The notes under the pieces are model-generated. The model had not been told where the DNA came from and made no database searches. It saw only the letters and a program-made list of their open reading frames with translations. From contig JAILZC010000001.1 in the NCBI GenBank assembly GCA_023512665.1, forward strand, positions 1 to 17,078: 17,078 nt of DNA, given 5' to 3'. Position numbers and translations under genes: made by a program. This stretch comes from Candidatus Bipolaricaulota bacterium. GTDB lineage: Bacteria > Bipolaricaulota > Bipolaricaulia > RBG-16-55-9 > DRXL01. The stretch's first letter is position 1, and each line of letters begins with the position of its first letter. Shown here one piece after another: positions 1 through 17,078 of the stretch.

Positions 1-782
1 GCCCATAGGGCGACGCCCTGGGCACTCTGGGGCAGGCGCCGCGCGGCAAACCCCGTGATCGCTCCGTTCTTTTGGGGTTCACCGACGGGCACCCATTGGA
101 ACCCCTCACCCCTGACCTCTCCCCCGGCTCCTCCCCTGAAAGGGGAGGGGAGCCCCTTCCCGAAGGGGGTGGGGTTAGGTTCGGGAGAGGGGCCGAGGGT
201 GAGGGGGTGATCGCTGATATAGAAGATTTCGTCAAAGCTTTCGAGCTCTTGCTGGCTGCGCAGCATCTGAAGAATGTGCGACTCTCCAGCGTTGCTCTGC
301 AGCGTTGGGCGGGAGGCTTGCAGTATAGAGAGGGCTTGGGCGTGATCCTGCGTCCAGGGCACGAGTAGCCGAGGGGTTCGCTGCGCTTGGATGACCGTGA
401 GATGGCTGGGACGGCGCCTCTCGATGATCTCTCGAGCGAGGGCGATGGCGCGCTCGTAGCGGCTCTGCCCTTGCTCGCGCGTCTGCATACTCGCGCTGCC
501 GTCAACAATCATCGCGAGGGTGCCACCGCTGAAGAATGCTTGGGGGAGTGTCGGCGTAGCCAGGGCGAAGACCAGAGCAGCGAGAGCAGCCAACTGCACC
601 AGCAAGAGCCCGATATTGGTCCACAAGAAGATGAGGGCGCTGCGCGGCTGCTCCGGCTCTTGACGCCAGAGCCACAGGGCCGAGACCGTGAGACGCTCCT
701 CGCGCCGCCGCAAGAAATACAGCGCCGTGACCACACCGGCCAACCCCAACAGCCCAAACGCCCAGGCGTTCAGAAAGATCAT
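1..782 (-). CDS. BatA-like VWA membrane protein, C-terminus outside window
   Basis: Reading the minus strand from an ATG at 782 gives 260 residues with no stop before the window edge. The N-terminus (residues 1-25) is a hydrophobic helix followed by an RRREER cluster, the pattern of the BatA aerotolerance-regulator N-terminal domain. A second helix lies at about 50-75. A von Willebrand A fold follows, with the metal-site motif DGSAS at residues 94-98. The start overlaps the stop of the DUF58 gene as ATGA, so translation is probably coupled. From the MoxR/Bat family, the role is a membrane-anchored partner of the MoxR ATPase in envelope or metal-dependent complex assembly; the target is unknown. 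At about residues 192-227 the reading frame crosses a palindromic C-rich/G-rich repeat (101-208) translated as a Pro/Gly-rich stretch, which looks like an insertion. Family call is fairly sure; exact Bat subtype is not. Confidence 0.82.
   Translation of the reverse strand, partial: MIFLNAWAFGLLGLAGVVTALYFLRRREERLTVSALWLWRQEPEQPRSALIFLWTNIGLLLVQLAALAALVFALATPTLPQAFFSGGTLAMIVDGSASMQTREQGQSRYERAIALAREIIERRRPSHLTVIQAQRTPRLLVPWTQDHAQALSILQASRPTLQSNAGESHILQMLRSQQELESFDEIFYISDHPLTLGPSPEPNPTPFGKGLPSPFRGGAGGEVRGEGFQWVPVGEPQKNGAITGFAARRLPQSAQGVALW
101..208. repeat. Family 1 palindromic repeat inside the BatA-like gene
   Basis: A C-rich left arm (102-127) and a G-rich right arm (183-207) flank two inner hairpins, CTCCCCT-gaa-AGGGGAG (131-147) and CCCCTTCCCGAAGGGG (153-168). 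It is the longest of the three copies and keeps the minus-strand frame open across about 36 codons. Confidence 0.83.
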
Positions 783-2641: not shown

Positions 2642-2721
2642 GCAGGCTTCGCCTGCACCATTCACCTTGCCGCTTCGCGGCAAGACGAACGTCAAGCGAA
2701 GCTTGTCCAGACGAAGTCTGG
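2642..2721. repeat. Family 2 palindromic repeat, copy 1 (four-hairpin array)
   Basis: The operon gap before moxR is almost entirely inverted repeats. On the plus strand: GCAGGC-ttc-GCCTGC (2642-2656), CTTGCCGC-ttc-GCGGCAAG (2666-2684), CAAGC-gaa-GCTTG (2693-2705) and CCAGAC-gaa-GTCTGG (2707-2721). Every loop is TTC or GAA, arranged ttc, ttc, gaa, gaa. A longer alternative stem pairs AGGCTTCGC (2644-2652) with GCGAAGCTT (2696-2704). The reverse complement of 2642-2706 matches 14781-14845 at the end of carB, about 26 of 29 bases in one arm and 15 of 16 in the other by hand alignment. Its place between a stop codon and a ribosome site resembles REP-type intra-operon hairpins that affect mRNA stability; that role is inference. 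Confidence 0.85.
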
Positions 2722-10368: not shown

Positions 10369-10491
10369 CAATGTAACCTGAGGTGATCCGGCTCAGGCCG
10401 TGCTGCAGCGAATCTGTAGGAACAAAGAATGGAAGGGCCAGCTGCCGAGGCGGACTGGCCCATTTTTTTTGCCGTGGGGAGGGTCGTTGTT
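10369..10491 (+). promoter_or_regulatory. carAB structured leader, candidate attenuator
   Basis: The leader of about 120 bases has three consecutive hairpins: CCTGAG/CTCAGG (10377-10382 with 10392-10397), CTGCAG/CTGTAG (10403-10408 with 10414-10419) and an intrinsic terminator (10435-10470). An ATG at 10429 with AGGA seven bases upstream reads through the terminator in frame into carA, so translation starting there would melt the terminator. The main carA ribosome site, GGAGGG (10478-10483), lies just after the T-run. I do not recognise a known riboswitch, T-box or PyrR site. A pyrimidine- or arginine-responsive attenuator is plausible for carAB but not shown. Confidence 0.5.
10435..10470 (+). 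terminator. Intrinsic terminator inside the carAB leader
   Basis: A perfect seven-base GC-rich stem GGGCCAG (10435-10441) / CTGGCCC (10455-10461), with a 13-base loop that can fold further, is followed by A and eight T (10463-10470). This is a textbook Rho-independent terminator on the plus strand. It would end any read-through from rtcA and, being downstream of the carAB promoter, also most carAB transcripts unless it is prevented from folding. Confidence 0.85.
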
Positions 10492-11637
10492 ATGGCCATG
10501 CTAGCCCTCGAAGACGGAAGAGTCTTTCGTGGGCGCGCTTTCGGCGCCCAGGGAGTTCTCTGCGGCGAAGTCGTCTTCAATACCGGCATGGCCGGCTACC
10601 AAGAGATCTTGACCGATCCGTCTTACGCCGGCCAGATCGTCTGCATGACCTACCCCCATATTGGGAACTACGGGATCAATAGCGAAGATATTGAGTCCTC
10701 TCGTCCGTGGGGCAGGGGGTTCATCGTGCGAGAACTCTCTCAAAGATTCTCTAACTGGCGCGGACAGATCAGCTTGGATCGTTATCTCCAAGAGCACAAT
10801 ATCGTCGGGCTGTGCGAGGTGGACACGCGGGCGCTGACGCGCCACATCCGGGAGCGCGGGGCGATGCGCGGCTGCCTCTCCAGCTTCGATGTTGATCCCC
10901 ATGAATTAGTCGAGCGCGCTCGCTGCGCCCCTACGATCTCTGAGGTCAATTGGGTCAGGATCGTCGGCTGCACTTCACCCTCACCCCCGTCCCCTCTCCC
11001 CTCGGAGGGAGAGGGGAGAGAAGGGGTGAGGGGGCGAGGGGATGAGGGGGAGGGCCTGCACATCATCGTGGTGGACTTTGGCGTGAAGAGAAGTATTCTT
11101 AAGAATTTGCAAGCGCGCGCCCACAGAGTCACGGTCGTCCCGCACTTCTGGAGCGCCAAAGAGATTCTCAGACTCGACCCCGACGGCATCGTGCTCTCCA
11201 ATGGCCCCGGCGACCCTGCTATTCTGAAAGATGCCATCCGCACCGCGCGCGCCCTGATAGATTCTGAATACTGCCCGATCTTTGGGATCTGCCTCGGCCA
11301 TCAGATCCTGGGGCTAGCTTTGGAAGCGCGCGTGTATAAATTGAAATTCGGCCATCGTGGGGTCAACCAGCCCGTCAAAAATCTCCTCACACAGAGGGTC
11401 GAGATCACCTCGCACAATCACGGGTTCGCCCTCGCAGACTTGCCCGACGAGTTAGAACTAACACATATTAATCTCAACGACGGCTCGATTGAGGGCTTCC
11501 GGCACAAAAAACTCCCCGTCTTCGCCGTACAGTATCATCCTGAGGCCTCGCCGGGGCCGCACGACGCGCTCTCGCTCTTCGATCAGTTCTTCGATCTGAT
11601 CAAAAGTTCACGGACATGCCCAAGCGCACGGATCTGA
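10492..11637 (+). CDS. carA: Carbamoyl-phosphate synthase small (glutaminase) subunit
   Basis: 381 residues from ATG 10492, chosen because CarA proteins start like [12 protein letters not shown] and a GGAGGG site lies eight bases upstream; the frame is open back to 10429. It hydrolyses glutamine and passes ammonia to CarB for carbamoyl phosphate (pyrimidines, arginine). The N-terminal domain (1-160) has [20 protein letters not shown], and the class I amidotransferase domain (about 190-375) has the nucleophile C267 in FGICLGHQ and H349/E351 in [10 protein letters not shown]. The catalytic set is complete. Between the domains (about residues 162-188) the frame runs through a palindromic repeat (10975-11055) absent from normal CarA, translated as a Pro/Ser then Gly/Glu/Arg stretch. 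The 3' end overlaps carB by 22 bases. Confidence 0.97.
10975..11055. repeat. Family 1 palindromic repeat inside carA
   Basis: A C-rich arm (from 10975) and G-rich arm (to 11055) flank a perfect ten-base hairpin, CCCCTCTCCC (10991-11000) / GGGAGAGGGG (11007-11016), with loop ctcgga. It keeps the carA frame open and adds about 27 residues exactly at the domain linker. The same C-rich/hairpin/G-rich pattern occurs at 101-208 and 16635-16696. Confidence 0.85.
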
Positions 11638-14600
11638 AAAAGATTTTCGTGATCGGTTCCGGACCGATTGTCATCGGCCAGGCGGGGGAGTTCGATTATT
11701 CGGGGACTCAAGCGTGCAAAGCGCTGCGTGAAGAGGGCTACGCAGTCATCTTGGTGAATAACAACCCTGCGACGATCATGACCGACCCGCAGAGCGCCTC
11801 GCGCGTCTATCTGGAGCCGCTCGTCCCGGAGATTGTGGAGAAGATCATCGCGCGAGAGCGGCCGGACGCGCTCTTGCCCACCGTGGGTGGCCAGACGGCT
11901 CTGAACTTGGCAAGAGAGCTGGCGCGATCGGGGATTTTAGAGCGATACGGGGTTGAGCTGATCGGCGCTTCCGAGCGCGCCATCGAGATCGCCGAAGACC
12001 GACTGCTCTTCAAAGAAACAATGGAGCGTGCGGGGCTGCCCGTGCCCAAAGGGGGCCTGGTGCGCTCTCTCGAAGAAGCCCGACGGATCTCACGAGAGCT
12101 GAGCTATCCCATCTTGGTGCGCCCGTCGTTCACGTTGGGAGGCGAGGGCAGCGGTGTCGCGCACTCAGAAGCCGAGCTGAGCACAGTCGTGCAGCGCGGG
12201 TTGGAGCTCAGCCCCGTGCACGAGGTCTTAGTCGAAGAGTCCGTCATGGGCTGGAAGGAATTTGAACTCGAAGTGATGCGCGACCGCAACGACAACGTCG
12301 TGATTATCTGTTCTATCGAAAATTTTGACCCGATGGGCGTGCACACGGGCGACTCGATCACCGTCGCGCCGGCGCAGACGCTCACAGACAAAGAGTACCA
12401 ACAGATGCGCGATTGGGCGGTCAGAATCATTCGCGCTGTGGGCGTCGAGACTGGGGGGAGCAACATCCAGTTTGCCGTCAATCCCCGCGACGGGAAGATG
12501 CTCGTGATCGAGATGAACCCGCGCGTCAGTCGCAGCTCAGCGCTCGCGTCCAAAGCCACGGGATTCCCCATCGCGAAGATCGCAGCCAAGCTCGCCGTGG
12601 GCTATACCCTCGACGAGCTGACTAACGATATCACCCAAAAAACTCCGGCGAGCTTCGAGCCCACGCTCGACTACGTCGTCGTGAAAATTCCCCGATGGGA
12701 CTTCGAGAAATTCCCTGGATCTGACACGACGCTCACCACGCAGATGCGCTCGGTAGGTGAGGTGATGGCGCTGGGGCGGACGTTCAAAGAAGCCCTGCAA
12801 AAAGCGATCCGTTCTCTGGAGATCGGACGATTAGGCTTTGGGGGAGAGCACGAGGAGCTTTTGCTCTCTGCGGAACTTATCCGAAGCTCTCTGGAGCGTC
12901 CCAACCCGCAGAGAATTTTCTCTCTCTCTCAGGCGTTGCTCGCCGGGGTCTCTATCGAAAAGCTGGCGCGCTGGACGGGGATAGACCCGTGGTTCTTAGC
13001 GCAGCTCGAAGAGATCGCGCTCTTGGAGAAGCGCATCCGTGGCTATGATCTTGCGACCTTGCCCCCAGAAGTGCTGTGGCAAGCCAAGCGTTTCGGCTTC
13101 TCGGATGCAGTGCTAGCAAAGATGCTCAAGACTTCTGAGAGGGCAGTGCGCGCACGACGTATCCAGCTTGGGATGCGCCCAGTCTATAAGAAAATCGACA
13201 CGTGTGCTGCGGAGTTTGAGGCCCAGACGCCCTATCTCTACTCGACCTACGAAGCCGATGAGTGCGAAGCCGCGCCTACCCAAAGAAAGAAGGTGCTCGT
13301 GCTGGGCGGCGGGCCATATCGCATTGGCCAGGGGATCGAGTTCGATTATTGCTGTTGTCATGCGGCGATCGCTCTGCGCGAGCTGGGCTTTGAGACGATT
13401 ATGATCAATTGTAACCCGGAGACGGTCTCGACAGATTACGACACTTCAGACCGACTGTACTTTGAACCCCTCACCCTCGAAGACGTTCTCAATACTCTTG
13501 AGATCGAAAGACCCCACGGGGTGATCGTGCAGTTTGGGGGCCAGACGCCCTTGAAGCTGGCGCTCCCGCTTGCCGAGCATGGTGTGCCCATCTGGGGCAC
13601 GAGCCCAGAAAATATTGACTTGGCCGAAGACCGCGAGAAATTCAATCTCGTGCTAGAAGAACTGCAGGTGAGGCATCCGCGAGGGGGGATCGCGCGGACA
13701 CGCGAAGAGGCCCTTGCCGTGGCGCGCGATCTGGGATTTCCCGTGCTGGTGCGCCCCAGCTACGTGCTGGGTGGGCGCGCTATGGCCATCTGCTACGATC
13801 AAAGCGATCTTGAACACTATATCGCTGAAGCCGTGCGCGTCTCGCCAGAGCATCCCATTTTGATTGACGAGTTCCTTCAAGACGCGATCGAGGTGGACGT
13901 GGATGCCGTCGCCGACGGCACCGACTGTGTGATCGGCGGGATCATGGAGCATATCGAGCGCGCGGGGATTCATTCGGGCGATAGCTGCTGCGTCCTGCCG
14001 CCGTTCACGCTCAGCGCAGAGATTCTTGAAGAGATTCGCGCTGTGACCAAGAAGTTAGCACGGCGCCTGCGCGTGGTAGGGTTGATCAACATTCAGTTTG
14101 CTGTTCAGAATGGGGCTCTCTACGTCCTCGAGGTCAATCCGCGGGCGTCGCGCACCGTGCCGTTTGTGAGCAAAGCCACAGGGCTGCCCCTGGCGAAGAT
14201 CGCCGCCAAGGTGATGGCCGGGGTGACTCTGAGAGAGTTGGGACTGCGCACCGAGCCCACGGTGAAGGGGTTCCATGTCAAGGCTCCGGTCTTCCCCTTC
14301 GATAGATTCTTAGTAGACCCGGTCCTGGGCCCGGAGATGAAAAGCACCGGCGAAGTGATGGGCTCAGGGCGCACTCTTGGGGAGGCATTCGCCAAAACCC
14401 AGATGAGCCTCAAGAGCCGGCTCCCCACTCAAGGGCGCGTCTTTGTGAGCGTCAACGACCGTGATAAAGGGGCCATCGCTCCTCTAGCCCGTGCGTTGGC
14501 GGAGCTTGGCTTTAGGATCATCGCGACGCGCGGCACAGCGGAGCGTTTGCGTCGTGAGGGCCTTCCTGTGCAGATCATCAACAAGATAAGCGAGGGCCAT

Positions 14601-14846
14601 CCCCACATCGGCGATGCGCTGGGTGCTGGGGAGATCGCGCTCGTCATCAACACACCGCGGGGCAAGCGCGCCCACCATGACGAAGCGGCGATGCGTATCA
14701 GCGCAGTTAAGCATCGTGTGCCGTATGTGACGACCATCGAAGGTGCGCGGATACTGATCGAAGCGATTCGGGCGCTCCAACAGGCTTCGCTTGACGTTCA
14801 TCGTGCCGCCAAAGGTGGCACGGCGGACGGTCCAGGCGAAGCCTAG
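11616..14846 (+). CDS. carB: Carbamoyl-phosphate synthase large subunit
   Basis: 1076 residues, full length. It uses bicarbonate, two ATP and CarA-derived ammonia to make carbamoyl phosphate. The first half (1-400) opens with [21 protein letters not shown] and holds ATP-grasp 1, with [17 protein letters not shown] near its end. The oligomerisation region is at about 405-550. The second ATP-grasp half starts near 558 ([19 protein letters not shown]) and includes [19 protein letters not shown]. The MGS-like allosteric domain is at about 939-1056 ([13 protein letters not shown]...). The last 20 residues (1057-1076) and the stop codon are encoded by a palindromic repeat (14781-14845) and are not family sequence. 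It is translationally coupled to carA (22-base overlap) and converges on the cytochrome gene with two bases between stop codons. Confidence 0.98.
14781..14845. repeat. Family 2 palindromic repeat, copy 2, forming the carB 3' end
   Basis: Outer arms AGGCTTCGC (14782-14790) and GCGAAGCCT (14836-14844) pair perfectly. The centre is a hairpin, GTGCCGCC-aaa-GGTGGCAC (14803-14821, one G-T pair). The element matches the reverse complement of 2642-2706. The central stem differs in sequence from copy 1 yet still pairs, so the fold rather than the exact sequence is kept. It lies in frame and supplies the C-terminal tail and stop of CarB. Confidence 0.82.
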
Positions 14847-15702: not shown

Positions 15703-17078
15703 TCACGGCGCAAAGCGATTGACGATGGGCTGGCGCCAGTCGCGCCCAAACGCCCTTCGGGTGATCTTCGGCCCCACGGGGGCTTGGCGCCGCTTGTACT
15801 CGCTCTTCTGTATGAGCGCGATGATCGCGTGCACGACGCTTTGGGGAAGCTGGAGGGCTTGCGCGATCTCGTCGGGGCTCTGCCCCCGCTCGATGAACGC
15901 TTCGAGAACCCTGTCGAGATCGCGATAGGGTGCGGGCAGGTCGGCCTCGTCCGTCTGACCGGGGCGCAGCTCCGCCGAGGGCGGGCGCTCTAAGACCCTT
16001 TGGGGTATAACTTCAGACTGAGCATTGCGCCAGTGCGCCAGCTGATAGACCCTCGTCTTGGTGACGTCTTTGAGCACGCAGAACCCGCCGGCCATGTCAC
16101 CGTAGAGCGTGGCGTAGCCTAGGGCCAGCTCGCTCTTGTTGCCCGCCGTCAAGACCAATCTTTTGAATTTATTCGAGAGCGCCATCCAGAGCACAGCGCG
16201 CAGGCGCGCTTGAATGTTCTCTTCAGTCGAGTCAGGCTGCGCCTTAGCCAAGACCGGAGCGAGCGCAGAGAGCGCGCCCGCGTAGAGCGCGTCTATGTCG
16301 AGCGTGATCAGCTGGATTTCAAGATTTTGGGCAAGAGCAAGAACATCTTCGTGGCTCATCGGCGATGTGAACCGCGAGGGCAGAAAGACCCCACAGACGT
16401 TCTGTGGGCCGAGCGCGTCGACAGCGATGCAAGCCACGAGCGCTGAGTCAATGCCCCCAGAAAGCCCGACGATCACCCGCTCGAAGCCGTTCTTGCGCAC
16501 GTAGTCTTTCGTGGCCAGCACCAACGCGCGATAGACCTCCTCGGCTTCAGAGAGAGGCGGCTCGATGCGCGGGAGCGCTTTCTGCGCAGGGTACGTCCCA
16601 ACAGGACGGGGGAGCTTGATGACGGACACCTGAGACCTCACCCCGCCTGCGGCACCCCTCTCTGCTTCAGAGAGGGGTTGGGGAGGAGGTGAGAGACTGA
16701 GATCGGCAACCAAAAGATCTTCAGTGAACGCTTTGGCCCGCGCCACTATCTTCCCGTCTCGGTCATAGATCAAGCTCTGGCCGTCGAAGACGAGCTCGTC
16801 TTGGCCGCCTACGAGGTTGCACAGGGCGATGGCGACGTGCTCGCGCGCCGTGTGCGCTGCTAGCAGGGCCTCACGCTGAAAATTTTTCTGGATCTCATAG
16901 GGCGAGGCTGAGATATTGAGAATGAGCTGGGCTGCGGCGCGCGCTTGAGCGCCGATCGGGCCATCAGGGCGCCATAAATCTTCGCAGATCGTGACCCCGA
17001 ACGAGAGATGCCCGTCGGTGAAGAGAAAAAGCTTTTCGCCGGGGTGAAAGTAGCGCAGCTCGTCGAAGACCCCGTAAT
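15703..17078 (-). CDS. nadE: Glutamine-dependent NAD+ synthetase, N-terminus outside window
   Basis: The frame is open from the window edge to the stop at 15703 (about 458 residues present). The visible N-terminal part is the end of the nitrilase-type glutaminase domain: YGVFDELRYF, catalytic Cys in FGVTICEDLW (Cys codon at 16984-16986) and NLVGGQDELVFDG. The C-terminal synthetase domain has the ATP P-loop SGGIDS (16444-16461), TEENIQARLRAVLWMALSN and LYGDMAGGFCVLKDVTKT. It amidates nicotinic acid adenine dinucleotide to NAD using glutamine. A shorter frame from a TTG at 16773 is internal, not the true start. In the linker between domains the frame crosses a palindromic repeat (16635-16696), giving a short Pro/Ser then Ala/Gly stretch. 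All catalytic motifs in view are intact. Confidence 0.96.
   Translation of the reverse strand, partial: YGVFDELRYFHPGEKLFLFTDGHLSFGVTICEDLWRPDGPIGAQARAAAQLILNISASPYEIQKNFQREALLAAHTAREHVAIALCNLVGGQDELVFDGQSLIYDRDGKIVARAKAFTEDLLVADLSLSPPPQPLSEAERGAAGGVRSQVSVIKLPRPVGTYPAQKALPRIEPPLSEAEEVYRALVLATKDYVRKNGFERVIVGLSGGIDSALVACIAVDALGPQNVCGVFLPSRFTSPMSHEDVLALAQNLEIQLITLDIDALYAGALSALAPVLAKAQPDSTEENIQARLRAVLWMALSNKFKRLVLTAGNKSELALGYATLYGDMAGGFCVLKDVTKTRVYQLAHWRNAQSEVIPQRVLERPPSAELRPGQTDEADLPAPYRDLDRVLEAFIERGQSPDEIAQALQLPQSVVHAIIALIQKSEYKRRQAPVGPKITRRAFGRDWRQPIVNRFAP
16635..16696. repeat. Family 1 palindromic repeat inside nadE
   Basis: CCCCTCTCTG (16655-16664) pairs perfectly with CAGAGAGGGG (16668-16677) around a three-base loop. 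It is flanked by CCTCACCCC on the left and GGGGAGGAGGTGAG on the right, which pair as outer arms. The nadE frame is kept. It is the shortest of the three family 1 copies. Confidence 0.82.

Follow-up and report, generated by a model that had tools for sequence, protein, structure and literature searches.

In the window, that is, the whole stretch of 17,078 nucleotides analysed in this study, the genes for both subunits of carbamoyl-phosphate synthase are found together with several palindromic repeats, one of which lies inside carA (Table 1). This element is laid out as CCCTCACCCCCGTCCCCTCTCCC, a 6-nt loop, and GGGAGAGGGGAGAGAAGGGGTGAGGG, after which a purine-rich tail reaches about position 11054, and the carA frame passes through the palindrome without a stop. 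The protein matches PF00988 (small-chain domain) at residues 25-150 and PF00117 (glutamine amidotransferase) at residues 214-389, and the insert falls between the two. In a structure model of CarA with a mean pLDDT of 84.9, residues 168-183 (counted from position 10501), which belong to the repeat-derived linker, are predicted with a pLDDT below 50, as would be expected for a flexible joint. A previous reading of the letters by themselves (the sequence-only reading) had described a palindrome translated in carA at the domain junction, with copies elsewhere. The ORF translation, the Pfam scan and the repeat searches bear this out, except for the gain of about 27 residues that it had also stated.

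The pattern CCCTCTCCC N1-8 GGGAGAGGG N1-8 GGGTGAGGG occurs at one place in the window, where it matches both strands (10978-11015 on the minus and 10992-11032 on the plus strand), and at none in 300 dinucleotide-preserving shuffles. The same order of blocks, CCCTCTCCC-loop-GGGAGAGGG-loop-GGGTGAGGG, characterizes the BoxC/PIT/triplex motif, a multi-copy sequence of many genomes, and the carA element agrees with its block definition, having three consecutive blocks that could fold as a class II (Y-R-R) intrastrand triplex with short loops; on the minus strand, by reading, the loops also stay within the published limit of 1-6 nt. Scans of the window for tRNA and with Rfam at the gathering score gave 0 and 0 matches, and no near match in plasmids was obtained with 7.5 kb of the window.

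Two other genes of the window hold copies. The copy in the gene first named bat can be read as family A arms enclosing a family B element (GACCTCTCC...GGTTAGGTT), and NadE is 12 residues longer here than in four relatives and 14 longer than in a fifth. The claim that both genes carry copies holds, in that both copies are in frame and belong to related families. A second palindromic family, family D, has six matches in the sampled DNA, one of which is the C-terminal tail of CarB.

The carA leader (window positions 10370-10470) is conserved in five genomes as TGAGGTGA-CC-GCT...GCCGTGC...TCTGTA; a strong hairpin comes next, accompanied by eight T in all but one of these genomes, and the arrangement resembles an attenuator or riboswitch. 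Covariation gives weak support, since both partners have changed in just one pair among the 36 predicted. The leader has no Rfam match at the gathering score, and the single match of a permissive scan (E 0.37) was taken as chance.

Table 1. Genes and palindromic repeats of the window
Feature	Position	Strand	Basis
Repeat copy in the gene first named bat (3-782, minus)	102..207	-	in frame
Intergenic palindromic repeat of family D, in opposite orientation to the copy in carB	2644..2706	+	
carA, carbamoyl-phosphate synthase small subunit	10492..11637	+	start set by alignment to relatives, Pfam
Entire stretch of repeat origin with its purine-rich tail (codes for the replaced CarA linker)	10975..11055	+	sequence reading, alignments, structure model
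Palindrome of family A within carA: hairpin between a C-rich and a G-rich arm	10978..11032	+	pattern matches, aligned copies
carB, large subunit	11616..14846	+	ORF, Pfam
Copy of family D that encodes the C-terminal tail of CarB (21 residues)	14780..14844	+	
Palindrome from a related family inside nadE, before the NAD synthase domain	about 16630..16694	-	in frame

Repeat family in the genome and genus

The carA palindrome belongs to a repeat family with many members in this genome, which is of Bipolaricaulota type. In the assembly (1.46 Mb, 322 contigs, 69.8% complete), the half-element pattern has 47 forward and 46 reverse matches, 93 in all, and the reversed-pattern control has 0 + 0. A feature unique in the genome, which the sequence-only reading had named as an outcome that would speak against a spreading element, is thus excluded by the 93 half-matches. 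The pattern is present in all six genomes of the genus, with 3 to 47 matches per strand. In 203,566 sampled bases, 69 hairpins were found, of which 49 have both outer arms and are treated as full copies; the 20 without an outer arm were excluded. By eye, the common form of family A is TTCACCCTCACCCCCGTCCCCTCTCCCCTCNGAGGGAGAGGGGAG-n-AGGGGTGAGGGG, which the carA arms fit over about 55 nt, and some copies of the family lie at contig ends. No literature on palindromic repeats in Bipolaricaulota was found in an open-licence library.

Replacement of the CarA linker

In relatives, the two CarA domains are joined by a native linker some 21 residues long, which in G007 is QPYEWNEPLPRDWYGPQEAKE. This linker is absent here and 27 repeat-coded residues stand instead, so that the net change is only about +6. 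Therefore, the alignment with relatives, which had been proposed as a check for a clean gain, shows a linker replacement, and a clean gain of 27 residues is ruled out.

Linker sequences are highly variable among CarA relatives. The nearest one, P0001, is 91% identical (4 contigs, sources jgi and ena) and keeps the same insert peptide, and P0008, which was omitted from the CarA tree, has the same kind of insert. A different linker insert is found in P0002 to P0006, and the linker of P0003 holds a 10-residue peptide equal to one that family D gives the CarB tail here. In P0016 the insert is like family A with an extra stretch inside, and its close sister P0017 (fork 100/99) has the native linker. 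The linker DNA of G004 is, in our own reading, a degenerate family B element. DNA was read for the linkers of the window, G001, G002, G004, G007, and G008, and the other linkers were labelled from protein sequence alone. The inserts of the window and P0001, of P0016, and of G004 are, as far as these comparisons can tell, separate insertions at one CarA linker. A linker similar in all relatives, which had been named as a further outcome against the element, is not what the alignments give, since in several relatives this spot is occupied by repeat-like inserts of other kinds, and further relatives have kept the native linker.

The CarA tail is 95% identical in contig L112 of 'Candidatus Acetothermia bacterium RSWS18'. 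This places the organism among the Bipolaricaulota/Acetothermia, as do several protein matches named Candidatus Bipolaricaulota. In G007 and G008 (L034 and L036), the CarA C-termini end in other repeat-like tails, SPSPQPSPWKGEGS and SPLTPPLKREGNPPSLQGRGQGG.

The wide variation of the linker among relatives could suggest that a low-complexity Pro/Ser/Gly/Glu linker simply drifted to a likeness of the repeat. This is extremely improbable, since the match exists at the DNA level with 93 half-matches, the arms fit over their length, the shuffles yield 0/300, and the nearest relative retains the insert peptide; chance or drift can be set aside by the half-matches and the shuffles. It is equally hard to believe in an artefact of assembly or binning, to which the fragmentation and incompleteness of this metagenome-assembled genome and the copies at contig ends might point, because P0001, in its few contigs, and P0008 hold the same kind of insert, G003 has in-frame elements, and element-like peptides occur in open frames of G002, G004, and G005.

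In-frame copies within genes

By judgement, 15 of the 49 full copies lie in frame within genes. Seventeen of the 49 are flanked on each side by 30 or more open codons in one frame and reach a total coding score above 8; from these, L142:1638 and L152 were dropped (upstream scores -0.19 and -0.25), and L161 (-0.01) and L173 (-0.10) were kept. A stricter test of 240-nt flanks found one frame without a stop for 9/49 copies, one frame with a stop for 1, different frames for 2, and one or no coding flank for 30, with 7 not scorable. Since carA itself failed this test, the number 15 is to be taken as a count by judgement. By either number, a spreading element that is able to live in frame inside genes, as first proposed, is upheld, and the count of genic in-frame copies that had been suggested as a check was made here on the sampled full copies.

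Positions relative to Pfam matches are as follows. Seven of the 15 copies fall between two matches (carA, mutL, polA, a GHMP kinase, an ABC-F-type protein, a Mur ligase read as murE, and a TPP enzyme), two fall within one match (purH and a heavy-metal P-type ATPase read as a copper ATPase), and six are undecidable. The consensus of the element can be read without a stop in four of its six frames, which yield flexible Pro/Ser/Gly/Glu/Arg peptides. Because more than one of them is used, a single dedicated coding frame is ruled out.

Rickettsia palindromic elements are palindromic repeats that stand in frame in housekeeping genes. The shared trait, an in-frame palindromic insert in conserved genes, is found here, and the comparison, one of concept, may be kept as an analogy; here, in contrast, the bacterium is unrelated, the native CarA linker was replaced, and more than one frame is used. 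From the interpretation given by the sequence-only reading, the spreading in-frame element and the likeness in concept to the Rickettsia elements remain, whereas the clean gain in CarA does not, and the sequence class is one already known.

This class is BoxC/PIT/triplex, whose repeats occur in more than 260 genomes according to Holder et al. 2015 (PMC4666352). Many copies above chance, which are asked of the class, are present here. Holder et al. report copies of the triplex motif in E. coli K-12 as always intergenic, a trait that describes E. coli rather than defines the class, whereas 15/49 full copies are genic and in frame here. Compared with E. coli BoxC, the copies in this genome are translated and nested, and related hairpins frame DUF559 genes. 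New, then, are the in-frame copies, the nesting in sister genomes, and the DUF559 link.

Movement and nesting of the elements

Seventeen residues of PurH are missing from five relatives, whose matches are 509-510 residues long. In the nearest of these, the empty site is TTGAGGGTGAGAG, with GAGGGTGAG in it, and already resembles the element end GGTGAGGGTGAGAG. At this single clean empty site the overlap with the end amounts to 9 nt, and no duplication of the target, of the kind looked for in a MITE of a DDE transposon, is seen. In polA, one and the same linker carries an insert in this genome (G000) and in G005, and it is free of inserts in G003 and G001. In the gene of the heavy-metal P-type ATPase, the sister genome G003 holds family C inside family A, and G000 holds A alone. 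The Mur ligase gene of G000 contains a second, oppositely oriented A inside A, that of G003 a single A, and those of G001 and G002 neither.

Termini of family B lie within 60 nt of A elements on either side in 18/49 cases and on both sides in 6/49; the same test at 20,000 random positions gave 2.8% for either side and 0.125% for both. Together with the nested cases in the ATPase and Mur ligase genes, this shows palindromes entering other palindromes and partly replacing them. The nested swaps share arm sequence, and recombination between C-rich arms could yield the same swaps with no enzyme of the element's own, a point that is taken up below.

DUF559 nuclease genes framed by repeats

A nuclease gene of the DUF559 family (PF04480) that is framed by repeats is a plausible candidate for the mover of the palindrome. 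A G/C-rich pyrimidine-purine hairpin was searched for within 230 nt of 29 DUF559 domains, and it was found upstream of 22, downstream of 20, on both sides of 16, and on at least one side of 26. At control positions in the same loci (2591 pairs), the values were 5.0% per side and 0.8% for both sides. Hairpins on both sides were seen in 11/13 loci of Bipolaricaulota and 5/16 elsewhere, and on either side in 13/13 and 13/16. The 13 loci were taken from 35 matches listed, with fused or weak ones (e.g. L224-L226) unused and L222 skipped at a contig end. The 16 loci outside the phylum, from named cyanobacteria, proteobacteria, and Deinococcus, were taken from 30 listed (39 records). L219/L223 and L217/L228 look orthologous. 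In this test, both loci of E. coli and that of Picosynechococcus had no hairpin on either side.

The DUF559 unit of G005 is framed by GACCTAACCCC...GGGGAGAGGTC, with the ends GACCT...AGGTC. Short family B elements of this genome have both ends as in the G005 unit, with the gene absent, and they look as deletion derivatives of such a unit would. Among 60 genomes, the own genome included, DUF559 is present in 19, the three-block motif in 29, and the two together in 15 (Fisher p 0.0019, a value that ignores kinship). The other 14 motif-bearing genomes have no DUF559 match; 11 of them are at least 90% complete, and their motif copies are few (1-11).

By profile, DUF559 resembles homing endonucleases: its profile matches 3hrl, a solved endonuclease-like protein, with E 2.3e-44, and 3r3p, a 'Mobile intron protein' which we take to be I-Bth0305I, with E 8.6e-7. 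A homing-related nuclease encoded within the element, as in homing elements, is thus found here in the repeat-framed DUF559 units with their 3r3p profile match. Relatedness of the nuclease domain to the EDxHD homing endonucleases, such as I-Bth0305I (PMC3943268), is a likeness of sequence profiles, and, in contrast to them, free-standing DUF559 proteins are short, most having 115-174 residues. In PMC12907096, a DUF559 protein of Caulobacter is explained as a Vsr-like enzyme of mismatch repair, which counts against DUF559 as the mover. No published link of DUF559 with palindromes or mobile repeats was found in the open-licence literature.

Several DUF559 genes have unusual contexts. In L217 (G028) and L228 (G062), an in-frame DUF559 lies within an HsdM gene between two repeat-coded peptides, and L217 also has GIY-YIG. 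A DNA methylase in L224 (G022) is interrupted in frame by an insert that holds DUF559 (residues 501-602) and repeat-like peptides; the insert is intein-like and ends in HNC, where 'intein' is a reading of the sequence, with no splicing-domain match listed. In 120 DUF559 homologues (P0121-P0240), repeat-like peptides follow the domain in 41 and precede it in 10, as counted with a loose motif and a rough domain end and with no control.

The E. coli DUF559 gene is ycjD, the sequence of which is present in 3365/5426 genomes, and in BW25113 a triplex motif begins 166 nt past it. Three E. coli strains without ycjD (L262-L264) have an efflux operon after sapF instead, so that the site is not simply empty, and they were rejected as empty sites.

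A Y1 tyrosine transposase of the RAYT type, as for REP sequences, was considered as another mover. According to PMC2817692, REP/RAYT units are likewise short palindromes with inverted copies flanking a nuclease-type gene, and REP copies are in clear excess where the cognate RAYT is present; this analogy speaks for such a mover. However, the nuclease here is DUF559 (Vsr-like) and not a Y1 transposase, and the elements enter genes. Moreover, PF01797 has one partial match in one of the six genus genomes (61-91% complete), and visual inspection of the aligned copies showed no GTAG-type or GT(A/G)G head at the foot of the palindrome. RAYT as the mover is therefore very improbable and was rejected because its profile is nearly absent.

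Spread of the palindromes with no enzyme is a more serious alternative. In this scheme, template switching, slippage, or recombination of the C/G-rich arms multiplies the palindromes, and the DUF559 genes are passengers that landed in repeats. Processes of this sort have been discussed for the instability of triplex motifs. Holder et al. (PMC4666352) report no mobility genes and no transposase or integrase remnants near E. coli motifs, link the motifs to small changes and deletions, and also describe triplex formation in vitro by the E. coli sequence. The 14 element-bearing genomes without a DUF559 match and the shared arm sequence of the nested swaps fit this scheme as well, as does the negative result of the cognate-repeat test. 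In that test, with six named records, DUF559 flanks in a distant 50-kb stretch hit their own record in 2/12 cases, the same as control flanks (2/12), and the counts of hairpin arms ranged from 0 to 3, with no excess in the own record. Against it stand the 16/29 DUF559 domains framed on both sides versus 0.8% of control pairs, the short family B elements with both termini of the DUF559 unit, and the profile match to a mobile-intron nuclease. Overall, spread with no enzyme is considered rather unlikely, with a chance of roughly one in three. The link between DUF559 and the palindromes is strong yet circumstantial, and the chance that DUF559 is the agent of movement appears about even.

Proposed mechanism and its meaning

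A proposed origin of the carA stretch by means of DUF559 can be described as follows. A non-autonomous palindrome would have landed in the inter-domain linker of CarA and taken the linker over. Its autonomous form would be a small gene for a DUF559 (Vsr-like, homing-endonuclease-related) nuclease between two palindromic ends, and the short elements would be derivatives of this unit by internal deletion. The nuclease may act on hairpin-forming DNA, opening either palindromes already in place or short sequences matching the element ends, and repair would then copy in another palindrome, often with loss of the old hairpin. Since four of the six consensus frames are open and encode flexible peptides, copies may survive in frame wherever the protein can accommodate them, in many cases at the junction of two domains. 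Taken as a whole, the reading of the carA stretch as a non-autonomous mobile palindrome of BoxC/PIT/triplex type, with a DUF559 unit as its autonomous form and homing-like spread over palindromes, is slightly favoured. With somewhat less confidence than an even chance would give, it can be suggested further that the BoxC/triplex-type palindromes across bacteria are the ends and deletion derivatives of an undescribed class of DUF559-driven elements, which in Bipolaricaulota became recurrent inter-domain linkers of essential enzymes. If such a class exists, elements would pile up inside one another, since the nuclease would use palindromes as homing sites.

The finding is real and more general than first read, in that a known class of repeats is used as protein linkers and its nested spread is directly evident. 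With a DUF559 nuclease gene framed by repeats, the mobility of the triplex motif becomes testable in E. coli K-12, where ycjD and a motif are neighbours. Selfish palindromes can repeatedly supply protein linkers within one genome, and one joint of an essential enzyme can host different inserts in related organisms.
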